From the NCBI RefSeq assembly GCF_023698535.1, contig NZ_JALJCL010000008.1, positions 1 to 64,000 of the forward strand: a stretch of 64,000 nucleotides of DNA. Direction: 5' to 3'. The notes under the pieces were generated by a model. The model made no database searches. It saw nothing but the letters and a program-made list of their open reading frames with translations, and had not been told where the DNA came from. Both the position numbers and the translations under genes were made by a program. Numbering within the stretch: position 1 is the stretch's first letter; each line of letters starts with the position of its first letter. Shown one piece after another: positions 2,182 through 7,506 of the stretch. Source of the DNA: Halorientalis regularis. GTDB taxonomy: Archaea > Halobacteriota > Halobacteria > Halobacteriales > Haloarculaceae.

Positions 2182-2385
2182 TTCGTCCGAGTAATCGGAC
2201 TTCGGCAGACCCCCTCTCTTCCGCCGAGTCCGATATTTTCACGTGGGACAGAAATCGGACAAATATCAGGTATAGAAACTCTGCGGTATATATTCGATTA
2301 GAGTAAATCGTTTGATATTCGATGTCGAACACGGAGTGCCTCGCTGGAGACACCGACTTGACTCCCAAAGTCTCGTGCGAGATAC
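2182..2385. other. Non-coding, AT-richer stretch before repeat copy 1
   Basis: No convincing gene. The last 50 bases or so (from about 2330) resemble the flank just left of repeat copy 3 (about 5650-5701), with shared GCCTC...GACA...GACTCCCA blocks. The repeated unit may therefore extend left beyond the core in copies 1 and 3. Confidence 0.5.
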
Positions 2386-2520
2386 GCGCCCTGTATTCAG
2401 CAATCCCACCGTGATGAACGTAGAACAAACCACACCAGGGAACGCGGCCATTTTAAATCAACTGTGAATAATATCTAAAATGTACACCCGAAACACTACC
2501 GGGCAAGAATCTACTAGTAG
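2386..2520 (+). repeat. Dispersed ~130 bp direct repeat, copy 1
   Basis: Begins GCGCCCTGTATTCAGCAATC, contains CCACACCAGGGAA and AATAATATCTA, then AAATGTACACCCGAAACAC, and ends CAAGAATCTACTAGTAG. Copies 2 (3921-4063) and 3 (5702-5825) are in the same orientation and roughly 80% alike by eye. The right 20 bases are shared with copy 2 only. No transposase is encoded and I see no convincing terminal inverted repeats. Confidence 0.85.
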
Positions 2521-2569
2521 CTTCGCCTCTGTGCGATAGTAGAGCGAACCCCGGGAAGACTGCCACAGA

Positions 2570-2824
2570 CTAGCTATTTCGGTCGATCCACGCACAGAAT
2601 TCGTCGAAATCCTTCGCGCCAGCTTGCTCTGCGATGCTCCGCAAGGTCCCCGTATCGACCTCTTCGTGCAGCGGCACCGGGACAGTCCGGGCATCCGAAT
2701 CGTGGTCGTCGGGGGGTTCCCAGCGGAGAATTGCGTGGTCGCCGTTCGTCCGGTCCCATTCGTAGATTCCACTGTTGACCATCACCTTCACGACCTCCCT
2801 GCCGGAAAACGGTCCCCGAGCCAT
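2570..2824 (-). CDS. hicA: HicA-family mRNA interferase toxin
   Basis: 84 residues with the double-stranded-RNA-binding-like fold of HicA. Diagnostic stretches are FSGREVVKVMVNSGIYEWDR near the N-terminus, GDHAILRW (the catalytic-type His), VPVPLHEEVDTGTLRSIAEQ (the family hallmark) and a C-terminal DEFCAWIDRN. HicA cleaves mRNA when free and is neutralised by HicB. The start is placed at the ATG at 2824, because the upstream in-frame extension is only the shadow of hicB. It lies 4 bp after hicB, so the two are co-transcribed antitoxin-first, which is less common than toxin-first. The pair sits between repeat copies 1 and 2. Confidence 0.85.
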   Translation of the reverse strand: MARGPFSGREVVKVMVNSGIYEWDRTNGDHAILRWEPPDDHDSDARTVPVPLHEEVDTGTLRSIAEQAGAKDFDEFCAWIDRNS

Positions 2825-2828
2825 TCGG

Positions 2829-3110
2829 TTACTCGAAGATATCCGACTCGTCCAGCGATCCAGCGGTGTTCTGATCGGGGTCGATCCCCATCTCTCGGAG
2901 GTCGTCGTCACTCGGTGACTCTCCGGCACCGTGATAGCCGGCGACGGCCTCGTCGAGGTTTTCGAGTGCAGCCCGTCGAGTCTGACCCTGCGAGGTAACA
3001 CCGGTGTCCTCGTCGCGAGCGACCCACACGTCGCCGCTCTCGCCCAGCGATAGCGAGATGTTGATCGGCCCCGGCTCGTCGTCGCCGGCGTCGTCGGTGT
3101 CGGTGCTCAT
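2829..3110 (-). CDS. hicB: HicB-family antitoxin
   Basis: 93 residues. After an acidic N-terminus (MSTDTDDAGDDEPG) comes the HicB core ISLSLGESGDVWVARDEDTG, then a helical segment with RRAALENLDEAVAGYHG, a variant of the usual TREEALENAxEAL pattern. No DNA-binding domain is attached, so this is the short HicB form. The start is the ATG at 3110, since upstream in-frame residues do not resemble the family. It should bind and block the HicA toxin encoded 4 bp downstream. A toxin-antitoxin pair bracketed by repeats fits an accessory cassette. Confidence 0.8.
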   Translation of the reverse strand: MSTDTDDAGDDEPGPINISLSLGESGDVWVARDEDTGVTSQGQTRRAALENLDEAVAGYHGAGESPSDDDLREMGIDPDQNTAGSLDESDIFE

Positions 3111-3298
3111 ACATAGGAAGAAGTCTGGTGGTCGAATAAATCTGGCGTGTCCAGGAGCTGACCCGGACAACTCGTGGGTGAACCACAGCTGATCGAAGGT
3201 GTAAACGGACGTTCGGTGATTCGAGATGAATATGCTGCCGTGATGGATACAGACGAAAGATTTCTCATACCTGAGACATCCATCAGTCACCGCTCGAC

Positions 3299-3859
3299 CT
3301 ACAAAACAGAGCAGTTGAGGGTACGGTCGTCGATAATACCGGATCGGTCTATCCAGATCCCGTGCGCTTTGTCGTTACAGTCAGACGGTTCTATCGTGAT
3401 TGGTTTTCTCTCGGATTGATTCATATACTCGACTGTGAGCAGGTATTGACCCGACTGTTCAAATCTAAATCCACGAGTTTCGTACGGTGAGAGGCGGATC
3501 GTTTCGTGAAATATCGTCTCAGTTTGGCCGTACGACAGAAAAACCGTGAGCGTTCGATTTTCAGGGGTTGGATTCCAGACGTAAGCATCAACCATTCCGT
3601 CGAATTGAGGCGTTGAACATTCTCCGACTATATAACCGGGACCAGCCTCTGGCCGTTTATTGTATGGTGGAAACGGCCACCCGAGATTTCGTGGTTCTAT
3701 ACTGTAGTTCACAGCTGAGACCGACGGTGGTGATCTGGTTTCTGTGGGCCTTGTTAGTGTATCGGTAGCCGTATTCTCTGGTGTCATGGGGTTTGTCGTC
3801 ACCCCAGAACAACCGCTCAACAGAAGAATAGAGACAAATACGAGGGCTCGACGGTTCAT
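3299..3859 (-). CDS. Predicted lipoprotein of unknown function
   Basis: 186 residues. The N-terminus MNRRALVFVSILLLSGCSG has a basic start, a short hydrophobic stretch and a lipobox ending in Cys, so the protein should be lipid-anchored outside the membrane. A Thr/Pro-rich spacer follows, then a beta-rich domain containing YIVGECSTPQFDG, a likely Ig-like fold (ENRTLTVFLSYGQTETIFHE, YETRGFRFEQSGQYLLTVEY) and a C-terminal Cys pair region. The ATG at 3859 is chosen because it starts directly at the signal sequence. Codon use is clearly less GC-rich than in core genes of the window, which suggests transfer. It shares the repeat-bounded cassette with hicAB. Confidence 0.65.
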   Translation of the reverse strand: MNRRALVFVSILLLSGCSGVTTNPMTPENTATDTLTRPTETRSPPSVSAVNYSIEPRNLGWPFPPYNKRPEAGPGYIVGECSTPQFDGMVDAYVWNPTPENRTLTVFLSYGQTETIFHETIRLSPYETRGFRFEQSGQYLLTVEYMNQSERKPITIEPSDCNDKAHGIWIDRSGIIDDRTLNCSVL

Positions 3860-3920
3860 ACTGGCTCTCGTTTTGATTATTGGAAATATTTTGTGGGACA
3901 ATAGATGGAATGATCCATTC

Positions 3921-4063
3921 GCGCCCTGTATTCAGCATCCAACGTGATGAACTTTGGACACGCCACACCTGGGATAGCGGTCGCCACGAATTATTTGAGA
4001 ATAATTTTTATAACCATTAGAAATGTACACCCGGAACACTATCGGGCGAGAATCTACCAGTAG
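3921..4063 (+). repeat. Dispersed ~130 bp direct repeat, copy 2
   Basis: Longest copy. Starts GCGCCCTGTATTCAGCATCC and ends CGAGAATCTACCAGTAG. The middle holds AATTATT-tgag-AATAATT, a perfect 7-bp inverted repeat that is partly kept in copy 3 (ATTAT...ATAAT). On the minus strand GGTTATAAAAATT looks like a TATA box. With copy 1 it brackets the hicAB-lipoprotein cassette, and with copy 3 the phosphorylase-MFS cassette. Confidence 0.85.
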
Positions 4064-4219
4064 GCCCGGTGGAAGTGGAACCGGCATATGGCAAGCCCGA
4101 TCCGTTGGATATTATTAGTATATGATATGATTGGCTTGCTGGATACAGAGGTTATAGACAGCGCGAATCACTCCAGATACTTGGCTCTCGTCTCAGCAAC
4201 CAACTCGCAGGTCGATGAT
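4064..4219. other. Non-coding flank between repeat copy 2 and the phosphorylase gene
   Basis: Together with 3860-4063 this makes a 360-base gap without a gene. Apart from the repeat I see only AT-rich sequence around 4105-4135 and no supported open frame. Confidence 0.5.
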
Positions 4220-5035
4220 TTACTGTTCAAACCAAGACTGCCAGGCTGTAGCGGCCGCATCGATAACCTCGAGGGCGTCGCGAGTTCCATCCGCCTCCCC
4301 TTTCTCGAAATCCTCCTCTGTCTGTCCCATCTGGTTGGTCACGTGCGCGAAGCAGACGACAGGCTGCTCTCGAACCGCCGCGAACGTATACAGTGCAGCT
4401 GCTTCCATTTCGACTGCCAAGATGTCTTCAGACTCAGCACGTTGAATCGCAGTCTCTGTCTCCCGGAACGGAGCGTCCGTCGTCCACGTTGCCCCGGTAT
4501 AAACGGGCCGAGACACACTCTCGCACGCCGCTTCAACCGGAGCCAGGAGTTCGTCCCGGAGAGTTGCATACCGACTCGGTGTATCGTAGTGATGACTCGT
4601 CCCTTCGTCGCGGAGCGCCCGTTCGATGAGAACGAAGTAGGGCGGATCGTCCTTCGGCACGATCTGTCCCGACGAGGTCACGCTGACGAGAAATCGGCAG
4701 CCGGCGGCGAACAGTTGCTCCGCGACGAGAACGGCGAACGATGCCCCCACCGCACAGCCGACGATACCGAACTCCACACCGTTTCGTTTGAACCGGTAGA
4801 GATCCGTGTGGTAGCCGGGCCAAGCGTCGTCTTTCCGTGCCGCTCCAGCGGCCGTCAGATGGCGCACGATATCACCGTCCGGATCGAGGACACAGATATC
4901 CGGAACCGAGCGTTCCGGGAGGTCCTTCTGTCGGCGGGCATTCTCCAGCAACGCCTCAGGCGTAAAGACCGACGATTCGTCGAATTCCTTCGCTTCGAGA
5001 AGCGGCGAGGAATCCGACTCGGGCGAGTCAGTCAT
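4220..5035 (-). CDS. Nucleoside phosphorylase (uridine/purine phosphorylase family)
   Basis: 271 residues of the PNP/UDP phosphorylase superfamily, which splits nucleosides with phosphate into base and ribose-1-phosphate for salvage. Seen: the glycine-rich segment EFGIVGCAVGASFAVLVAEQ (phosphate/nucleoside pocket) and the family signature ILAVEMEAAALYTFAAVRE with the ribose-binding Met-Glu pair. N-terminal ESSVFTPEALLENAR resembles haloarchaeal Udp homologues. The substrate cannot be told from sequence. Its start codon overlaps, head to head, the truncated transporter at 5034, which suggests a rearrangement joined the two. It lies between repeat copies 2 and 3. Confidence 0.8.
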   Translation of the reverse strand: MTDSPESDSSPLLEAKEFDESSVFTPEALLENARRQKDLPERSVPDICVLDPDGDIVRHLTAAGAARKDDAWPGYHTDLYRFKRNGVEFGIVGCAVGASFAVLVAEQLFAAGCRFLVSVTSSGQIVPKDDPPYFVLIERALRDEGTSHHYDTPSRYATLRDELLAPVEAACESVSRPVYTGATWTTDAPFRETETAIQRAESEDILAVEMEAAALYTFAAVREQPVVCFAHVTNQMGQTEEDFEKGEADGTRDALEVIDAAATAWQSWFEQ

Positions 5036-5612
5036 GTGGACCGTATTGACGGAACACGGGCATGGACATTGTGGTCACTGGTTCGGAGTCCCGACGACCG
5101 CCGAGATCGCGGCAGTCGGCGTCGTCGTCGGCGTCCACAGCGCGATGTACTTCCTCCAGATCGCGACCGGGGGCCTCGCCGATCGGATCGGTCGTCGACC
5201 ACCCGTCGTCTTGGGCATGTTCCTCGCAGGTGCGGGAGTCCTCGGAATGGTGCTCGTCAAGGGATACCTCTCCTGGGCGGTGCTGGCCGCCGTCTCCGGC
5301 ATCGGAATGGCGTTACTGTATCCGCACCTGATGACGGTTCCGAGCGACGCAGCACATCCGACTTGGCGGTCCGCAGGCATGGGCGTCTACCGGATGTGGC
5401 GGGACTCCGGCTACGCCGTCGGCGCGATCCTGATCGGGCTCTCCATGAAGTTCGTGAACGCCGAAGCCGCGTTCTACATGACGGCCGGCCTGATGTTCGT
5501 ATCCGGTGCGGTTGTGTACATCTGGATGGAGGAGACGCACCCGGACTTGGGCACGCACGAACCGCCTGCACCCGCCACGGAGAAACCAGTCGAGACAGTT
5601 CCGCGAGACTAG
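5034..5612 (+). pseudogene. C-terminal half of an MFS transporter (5'-truncated)
   Basis: 192 residues beginning in what would be TM7 of a 12-helix major facilitator. It contains the second-half loop motif GGLADRIGRRPP, then further hydrophobic helices and SAGMGVYRMWRDSGYAVGAI. The first six helices are missing, whereas a full MFS protein is about 400 residues. The break point is exactly at the start of the divergent phosphorylase gene, so the 5' half was probably lost when the flanking DNA was rearranged. It is unlikely to transport anything alone. Repeat copy 3 begins 90 bp after its stop. Confidence 0.75.
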
Positions 5613-5701
5613 TTTAGCGTTCCTCTTTTCGACGGTCACAACTGTTTCCGATACACTCGTCGCCTCACTACAGACAGGGGAGACTCCCATCTGCTGAATA
5701 T

Positions 5702-5825
5702 GCGCCCTGTATTCAGCAATCGCAACGTGCTCAACTTTGCACACGCCACACCAGGGAAGGCGGTCGTTACAGATTATCTGAGAATAATATCTATAACTTT
5801 TAGAAATGTACACCCGGAACACTAA
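5702..5825 (+). repeat. Dispersed ~130 bp direct repeat, copy 3
   Basis: Starts GCGCCCTGTATTCAGCAATC and runs through CACACGCCACACCAGGGAAG and AGAAATGTACACCCGGAAC. It diverges from the other copies after CACTA at 5825, where the hairpin cluster begins. About 50 bases of extra similarity to copy 1 lie to its left. Confidence 0.85.
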
Positions 5826-6141
5826 CGACCGACATCATTCGGGGCGGTGTGCCCTGTCAGTCGGGAAACCCTCGTGCCGGGTGGGAGTCTCGACAGAGAC
5901 TCGGAACTGTGAGGCGGTGTCAACCGCCGAGTGGGGGACTCGTCAGAGTCCCCGAACACGCGAGCGGCGTCAGCCGCGAGCGCGGGAGATTACGTCTCCA
6001 ATCGTGGCGACTTGTGGCCGCCAGTCGACTGTCGCGTGCCCGGGTTCTCCGCGCGGTCATCGCGCCCTGACGGGTGTGCTCGGGCGGGGACTAGAGGCAC
6101 GCAGGCGGCGATAGACGACCGCCCGGTAAGAGGCTGTCGCG
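5826..6141. repeat. Cluster of perfect hairpins with GTCA-type loops
   Basis: About 315 bases without a gene. Four hairpins with different stems but near-identical tetraloops lie within 93 bp: GAGTCTC-gaca-GAGACTC (5885-5902), GGCGGT-gtca-ACCGCC (5913-5928), GGGGACTC-gtca-GAGTCCCC (5934-5953) and GCGGC-gtca-GCCGC (5964-5977). GGAGA-ttacg-TCTCC (5985-5999), a CGCG-gtcat-CGCG stem near 6054 and CCC-tgac-GGG (6065-6074) continue the series. It borders repeat copy 3 and lies 3' of the minus-strand flavoprotein gene, so it may also act as its terminator. Confidence 0.75.
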
Positions 6142-7506
6142 CTAGAACAGGTAGTCGTCCTGGCGCAACTGGACGTAGCGGCCGGAGCTGAGGCTGAGCT
6201 TCCGGAGTTTGTACTCCGCGACCAGCCGAATGCCGCTCAGACCCGACCCGAGGGCCTGTGTCGGCGAGTACTCGCCGCGGTTCATCATGTTGTCCACGAG
6301 CCGGAAGGTGTCGTCCCAGTCGCCGGGCTCCCAGCCCCGAACCATGTCCGCGAGCGAGACGTTCCGGCGGACCTCCTCGCCGATGGCGCGTTTCCACTCC
6401 CGGTTGTAGCGGTCGAGGCGGCCCTGGCCGGCGAGCTGGCCGGCAATCTTCCCGGTTCGGACGGCCACGTGGTCACCGCCCTCGTGGAACGCGGAGGTCG
6501 CGCCCATCGCGCCGCCGACGACGGCGACGCCGGCCTCGGTCGGGGACTCGATGGGCCGGGTCGAAGAGATCGGGTAGGCCTCCGTGCCTTTTCGTTTTCC
6601 CCGGTCTTCGACGAGGGGAAAGTCCTCCTCGATGTCGTACTCGGGGTACTCGCGTTCGATCAGCCGGCGGACGTACACCCGGCCCGGCGGGATCTGCTCG
6701 TCGTCGGGGTCAAGCAGGGCGTAGTCCTGTGGACTGTCGACATCCGCGAGGTCCATCCCGATGGGCATCGTCAACCCGATACGAGCGACGTTGTCGTCGT
6801 TCGGGAAGACCCACGGATAGGCCGTGTGACCGGGCATGACGCCCCACCAGAACTTCAGCAGGCCCTCGTCGAACAGTTCCTCCGGGACCTCGCGGTGTTC
6901 CTGGTAGGCGATGTGGTTGGCGATGTTCGAATCGAGGTAGTCGCGGACGCTGTGATCGTGGGGGAGGAATTGGTCGACGGCGTCGGTCGTGACGGTCCGC
7001 TGGGGCCCGTCCGCGAGGATCAGGTAGCGCGCCTCGACGTTCTCGCCCTCGGCGAGGTCGACCTCGTGGGTGTGTCCGCCAGTCATGTCGGTGGTCACGT
7101 CCGAGACGGAGGTGCCGATCCGGTAGGTCGCGCCGGCCGACTCGGCGCGCTCGCGGAGCCAGTCGTCGAACCGGGCGCGGTGGAAGGCGAACCCGAACTC
7201 GGGATAGGTCGCGTCGATGCCCGTGTCTCGGATCGTGACCGACTCGTTGGGGCCGATGAACGAGGCACCGTCGAGGTCGCTGAGGATGATGTCGTCGGGG
7301 ATCTCCTCGGGTCGGAAGTCCATGATGTCGACCCAGTAGTCGAGCATTCCCGCGGCGTCCGTCGAATCGGGCCCCAATCCCTCGCGATCCGCACGTGGAA
7401 CCCCCTTCTCGACGACGACCGTCTCGGCACCCTGCACCGCGGCCTCGTACGCAGCCGACGACCCGGCTGGGCCGCCGCCGACGATCGCCACGTCCACCTG
7501 TTGCAT
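6142..7506 (-). CDS. Geranylgeranyl-reductase family FAD-dependent oxidoreductase
   Basis: 454 residues. The N-terminal FAD-binding Rossmann motif is VDVAIVGGGPAGSSAAYEAA, and the C-terminal FAD motif is near EAGVAVVGGAMGATSAFHEG. This family saturates isoprenoid double bonds, as in archaeal membrane lipids and menaquinone side chains, with FADH2 as carrier, and also includes other flavin monooxygenase-like enzymes. Length and the C-terminal helical region (VRRNVSLADMVRGWEPGDWD) match haloarchaeal members. It is the first gene after the accessory zone and reads toward it. The precise substrate is not deducible. Confidence 0.8.
   Translation of the reverse strand: MQQVDVAIVGGGPAGSSAAYEAAVQGAETVVVEKGVPRADREGLGPDSTDAAGMLDYWVDIMDFRPEEIPDDIILSDLDGASFIGPNESVTIRDTGIDATYPEFGFAFHRARFDDWLRERAESAGATYRIGTSVSDVTTDMTGGHTHEVDLAEGENVEARYLILADGPQRTVTTDAVDQFLPHDHSVRDYLDSNIANHIAYQEHREVPEELFDEGLLKFWWGVMPGHTAYPWVFPNDDNVARIGLTMPIGMDLADVDSPQDYALLDPDDEQIPPGRVYVRRLIEREYPEYDIEEDFPLVEDRGKRKGTEAYPISSTRPIESPTEAGVAVVGGAMGATSAFHEGGDHVAVRTGKIAGQLAGQGRLDRYNREWKRAIGEEVRRNVSLADMVRGWEPGDWDDTFRLVDNMMNRGEYSPTQALGSGLSGIRLVAEYKLRKLSLSSGRYVQLRQDDYLF

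Follow-up and report, generated by a model that had tools for sequence, protein, structure and literature searches.

Capturing gene cassettes is one of the principal ways in which bacteria adapt; in archaea, to our knowledge, the process has been recognised only in the form of bacterial-type integrons from metagenomic assemblies. Integrons and CALINs, including the integrons of archaea, carry small cassettes in tandem and in a single orientation, each with one site; they are rich in toxin-antitoxin genes and exchanged between distant hosts, and CALINs also occur without an adjoining integrase (PMC9668308). In Acinetobacter, Xer-dependent dif modules are gene modules bounded by inverted-arm sites, equally rich in toxin-antitoxin genes and served by a host recombinase in trans; they reside chiefly on plasmids, and their XerC/XerD sites measure 28 bp (PMC6449649). 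Integrative elements such as the archaeal pNOB8 type target a stable RNA gene, a tRNA, at its 3' end, which the element restores (PMC8371274). Halobacteria are unmentioned in the main text of the archaeal integron paper (PMC9668308), as are haloarchaea in that of an Integron Finder study of 47 halophilic archaeal genomes (PMC7923331), and no earlier description of the system presented here was found in the open-access literature.

The window, a stretch of 64,000 nucleotides from Halorientalis regularis, contains three direct repeats that are docking sites of an integron-like system, through which haloarchaea stack small mobile cassettes, mostly of toxin-antitoxin type, where one conserved RNA gene ends. 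Tandem same-orientation cassettes with one site each, toxin-antitoxin cargo and exchange between distant hosts are shared with integrons and CALINs. The sites, however, appear to be sequence-conserved inverted repeats with a 7-bp overlap and not folded attC sites, and the arrays are anchored where an HgcG-like RNA has its 3' end instead of on an attI; no IntI beside an array and no attI adjacent to intI were found (among the hits listed for 19 genomes, and in 88 loci). In contrast to dif modules, the sites share one orientation and are chromosomal, at an RNA gene, and a role for Xer is only putative. Unlike the tRNA-targeting elements, the units carry no integrase, measure mostly 0.25–5 kb, stack in tandem and target an H/ACA-like RNA. 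Since the integron tests for a nearby IntI and an attI failed and the spacer differs from that of dif, we count the system in neither group; it appears to function like integrons or Xer dif modules, with membership in neither shown, and may be regarded as a variant of the cassette-array kind.

The system occurs in about a quarter of the sampled Halobacteria, cultured genera among them, and Halobacteria are a class with laboratory genetics, so that the recombinase, cassette exchange and toxin-antitoxin traffic are directly testable. It also exposes a single-copy structured RNA, present in nearly every sampled haloarchaeon and undetected by Rfam; because the 3' end of this RNA is tied to a mobile system, its function becomes testable too.

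Direct repeats and cassettes in the window

The three copies of the repeat lie on the plus strand at 2382–2525, 3917–4081 and 5698–5834. Their ungapped pairwise identity of 80–84% across 99–110 bp, long invariant blocks common to all and copy-versus-copy BLAST E-values of 1e-19 to 1e-34, far beyond chance, bear out the first-pass annotation, which had reported same-orientation direct repeats; as it had also stated, neither a transposase nor a clear terminal inverted repeat was found at these repeats. The repeat joins two parts, a leader of ~100 bp restricted to the genus and a core of 50–60 bp found class-wide. In copy 1, the leader (2382–2477, plus strand), a genus-specific cassette end that begins ATACGCGCCCTGTATTCAGCA, precedes recombination site 1 (2478–2525, plus strand), composed of a left arm, the overlap AACACTA (2492–2498), a right arm CCGGGCAAG and an accessory part AATCTACTAGTAG that has diverged at its 3' side. 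Copy 2 comprises a leader at 3917–4020 and a complete site at 4021–4080 (both plus strand; overlap AACACTA at 4035–4041). Copy 3, whose leader (5698–5803, plus strand) is defined by comparison of the copies, retains only the left half of the core (HMM positions 1–31); in this terminal half site (5804–5834, plus strand), the cassette arm AAATGTACACCCGG and the overlap AACACTA (5818–5824) are fused to a different conserved sequence, ACGACCGAC, which is that of an RNA gene. The earlier suggestion that the repeat is functional holds for the core, which follows ATGTAC, and not for the palindrome AATTATT-tgag-AATAATT of copy 2, which is located in the genus-specific leader.

The leader opens with the motif ATTCGCGCCCTGTATTCAGCA in all three copies (2382–2402, 3917–3937 and 5698–5718). 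The same motif stands singly in intergenic DNA near unrelated genes, elsewhere in this genome (G000:C11:276607) and in other genera (L062, L063, L064), and is either a regulatory site or a mobile-element remnant.

Measured from overlap to overlap, cassette A (2492–4034) spans 1543 bp and carries hicA, a HicB-like gene and a lipoprotein-like ORF, and cassette B (4035–5817) spans 1783 bp and carries a nucleoside phosphorylase and a partial MFS transporter. Pfam matches back this cargo as first named for the HicA toxin (2570–2824, minus strand; PF07927, E=1.6e-12), the phosphorylase superfamily protein (4220–5035, minus strand; PF01048, E=1e-24) and the half transporter (5034–5612, plus strand; PF07690, E=3.8e-20, profile positions 32–184 of 347). 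A DUF7387 protein (2829–3110, minus strand; PF24113, E=2.1e-20) is, by its position, the putative HicB-like antitoxin partner, and the lipoprotein-like ORF (3299–3859, minus strand), with the lipobox LLLSGCSG, has no Pfam match. The hicAB portion of cassette A is 94% identical to genome G080 and 91% to G078.

Elsewhere in the same genome, contig C42 has a full copy of the repeat, C43 has two partial copies and C11 has a 29-base match. The partial copies on C43 flank a histidine kinase gene, and a hicA fragment adjoins the second of them. The head of the array is out of view in the window, whose contig begins inside the array (1–2382); contig C43 (G000:C43:228162–230717) also ends within an array, head included, and the two contigs probably join across an insertion sequence.

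The core site and its anchoring RNA gene

The core reads TGTAC-RCCCGG-AACACTA-CCGGGCGAG followed by a conserved accessory block, with the site consensus AAATGTACGCCCGGAACACTACCGGGCGAGAATCTACTAGTAGGCTCGGTGGAAGTGAAA. Its inverted arms, RCCCGG and CCGGGC, enclose AACACTA, the most conserved stretch, and inverted arms around a short spacer are the layout of tyrosine-recombinase core sites. The arms pair in 91% of cells with covariation no greater than in shuffles, and the site is conserved in sequence over ~55 bp. R2, a sequence-only model built from 36 sites, finds sites in at least 104 of 391 Halobacteria genomes and at least 35 of 86 genera, including Natronomonas, Halomicroarcula, Halorubrum, Halopenitus, Halorientalis, Halapricum and Salinibaculum; these counts, like those of the RNA model R1 below, come from filtered searches, among the matches listed, with one genome per species and some contigs broken inside arrays. 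The sites lie on the same strand at spacings of mostly 0.7–4 kb, and 107 tandem, single-orientation cassettes with one site each were delimited in 35 loci. Among the matches listed, 125 sites could be assessed, and 115 of them are no more than 25 kb from the RNA gene, against ~2 expected by chance. A minority of sites lie elsewhere in the genomes, and the complete sites that stand alone or in pairs well away from the RNA gene at L160, L162, L163, L164 and L167 are regarded as secondary integration sites.

No transposase common to the arrays was found in the 107 cassettes of the 35 loci, and the sites cluster at one locus instead of forming the dispersed, transposase-linked copies of IS200/IS605 elements or MITEs; an IS605-type right end was rejected for want of any transposase link. 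The exact site pattern is absent from IMG/VR and the site from phage and plasmid collections, and carriage by a virus or plasmid was rejected because these three collections returned nothing.

What anchors the array is a conserved RNA gene directly to the right of copy 3, beyond the stretch (2386–5825) covered by the first-pass annotation. Among 60 site matches in 17 loci and the window set, the match to the RNA-proximal site extends only over HMM positions ~1–31 in nearly all loci where the RNA can be seen, a tally that leaves out the C43 locus L060, L055 and L066, where the stretches ended before the RNA. The half site continues into the end of a structured RNA gene of ~300 nt (5804–6103, minus strand, ends approximate), with a folding z-score of -4.2 and a helix in which the site arm takes part and an A-U pair is exchanged for G-C. 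The model R1, which was built assuming the plus strand, matches at least 385 of 391 Halobacteria genomes, nearly always in single copy. None of the haloarchaeal copies has a direct Rfam match, the gathering score of HgcG (RF00064) included, and this near-universal RNA is thus missed by Rfam models.

The relationship to HgcG/Pab40 (RF00064) runs through intermediates. R1 finds weak matches outside Halobacteria, and two homologs so matched, G519 and G597, match HgcG over its full length, below the gathering score (E=1.4e-7 and 0.006), with the same end point as the haloarchaeal RNA. Through such homologs in other Halobacteriota, the 3' domain with GGGUUAG, GAUGA, GUUA and the terminal ACA box can be aligned to HgcG, although the haloarchaeal copies themselves score under Rfam detection. 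In its native form the haloarchaeal RNA ends in CCGGGYG-ACA, which can be aligned to HgcG and the homologs and has the stem followed by ACA that is typical of H/ACA RNAs; the cassette version reads CCGGGYG-TACA and keeps the ACA, so that in the window the cassette arm supplies the 3' arm CCGGGTG and the ACA box. The RNA therefore probably belongs to the H/ACA family HgcG, for which a search of the open-access literature returned unrelated papers only. A promoter-like motif, in the window the TATA-like element CTCTTAC (6126–6132, minus strand), keeps its position in 54 aligned loci, ~27 nt before the RNA starts and on the strand predicted by the HgcG match. Promoter position and HgcG strand together indicate that the RNA runs towards the array from the side of a geranylgeranyl-reductase-like gene (6142–7506, minus strand; PF22578 match below the curated cut-off), its usual neighbour outside the array, and that the site is the 3' end of the RNA. 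They argue against the plus strand assumed initially, on which base-pair counts alone were indecisive. Other identities were rejected as well: RNase P RNA is located elsewhere in the genome, SRP RNA has no Rfam match in the window, and an apparent coding start MYTRNT after the repeat is the RNA 3' end.

The R of the arm pairs with a base inside the RNA, and the two match at all 50 typed sites, 42 with G opposite C and 8 with A opposite U. As every A-allele arm is confined to one genus, the match is suggestive and not phylogenetically independent.

Exact integration and candidate recombinases

Two types of arm precede RCCCGG, a native TC and a cassette TAC. The arm joined to the RNA is of the cassette type in 25 of 28 occupied arrays and native-type or mutated in three. 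Loci without a detected site divide evenly, nine of 18 having the native TC arm, which is also found in the outermost sites, and nine the cassette type, which points to array remnants that were missed or have decayed. At L111 and L058, cassettes lie upstream yet the RNA keeps a native-type arm, perhaps through rearrangement or reversion.

Two pairs of related species provide empty and filled versions of the locus, L185 (G170) against L180 (G179) with an 813-bp cassette, and L125 (G026) against L170 (G014) with a 3462-bp cassette. In both pairs, flank and RNA agree up to AACACTA (GACACTA in the genus of the first pair) and swap there, and at L175 and L177 (G235, G270) near-identical flanks surround different cassettes of 765 bp and ~2.3 kb. 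As read base by base from the junctions of all three pairs, insertion is exact, with the crossover inside the 7-bp AACACTA. The proposal that recombination at the repeats built a cassette array is supported by this exact gain and loss in relatives, at a repeat that is not an IS end; recombination itself stands, but it is site-specific within AACACTA and not homologous across the whole repeat.

Very probably, to judge from these comparisons, the window covers the end, next to the RNA, of a mobile array in which a recombinase acting in trans inserts cassettes within AACACTA, either where the HgcG-like RNA ends on its 3' side or at sites already present. Each cassette would be a unit with one recombination site, presumably circular, and the chemistry would be that of a tyrosine recombinase. 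After insertion, the outermost site would hold the old chromosomal arm and the innermost the cassette arm joined to the RNA. The cassette arm would thereby replace the 3' strand and ACA box of the RNA, and hence must match the RNA of its host, as it does; the RNA may well stay functional.

Among the hits listed for 19 array genomes, no PF00589 protein lies near an array, and 88 loci searched with motifs and for XerA yielded only the XerA gene of L169, a locus fetched for that gene and thus a positive control, and two chance motif matches. With no recombinase in or beside any array, the enzyme must act in trans. The chromosomal XerA is a leading candidate and could serve, as could accessory integrases. 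If XerA is the enzyme, the cassettes would correspond in archaea to Xer dif modules, and the 3' end of the RNA would be, or resemble, a chromosomal dif, of which we know no haloarchaeal example. The inverted arms flanking a short spacer, the lack of a recombinase in cis, the single-copy chromosomal target and a XerA-like protein in 145 of 145 genomes fit this tentative identification, to which we give distinctly less than an even chance; such universality, however, does not discriminate, and XerA presence was set aside as uninformative. Moreover, the RNA arm is not symmetric, and the conserved overlap of 7 bp differs from the 6-bp dif spacer of bacteria and Thermococcales, reported in a paper whose main text does not describe a haloarchaeal dif (PMC2958812). 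An integrase supplied by a virus, plasmid or integrative element of some strains, with the cassettes as its satellites, is a serious possibility that falls only somewhat below even. Satellite parasitism of integrases is common, and array genomes encode 5–21 PF00589 proteins each among the hits listed, but no autonomous element was seen at the RNA target and the site is missing from IMG/VR and from the phage and plasmid collections.

The array architecture, the toxin-antitoxin cargo and the single shared type of site would also suit a divergent true integron with IntI and folded attC sites. This reading was already disfavoured and is improbable, given arrays with no IntI gene nearby, a target that is an RNA gene and not an attI beside intI, and a site conserved over its sequence with arms that show no more compensatory change than shuffles. 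That the repeats are transposon or MITE scars whose copies recombined homologously and so shaped the cassettes is hardly credible: the leader repeat (about 100–145 bp) recurs within the genus and could recombine, but it is absent outside the genus, and the exact AACACTA junctions, the empty sites, the arm types at head and tail and the anchoring on the RNA contradict such an origin. We tentatively propose, at odds that are less than even, that Halobacteria have independently evolved a cassette platform, not an integron, in which a host chromosomal recombinase acts in trans and each insertion rebuilds the H/ACA-like RNA docking site.

Cassette cargo and transfer

Genes of toxin-antitoxin clusters are present in 58 of the 107 cassettes and in 46 of the 50 that measure 400–1250 bp. 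The pairs comprise a Doc-like protein with a 46-aa partner, DUF5615 with DUF433, HicA with a HicB-like protein, UPF0175 with DUF3368 and an HTH pair to which no type is assigned; the unnamed pairs are putative toxin-antitoxin systems. Longer cassettes carry transporters, kinases and ATPases. Cassette proteins are up to 96.5% identical between archaeal families. A 450-aa permease is 92% identical between the genus of the window and another family, and two genera share 94% identity in a 648-aa transporter but 64% in the neighbouring reductase. Such identity across families indicates horizontal transfer of the cassettes.

A recurrent cassette without an ORF occurs in four families (L049, L100, L103, L105, L106, L108, L109, L110, L112 and L115), often beside the HgcG-like RNA. 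It consists of 220–305 bp between two sites, with a conserved structured sequence beginning CCGGCGACCGAGCGG and no Rfam match, and looks like a non-coding RNA cassette.
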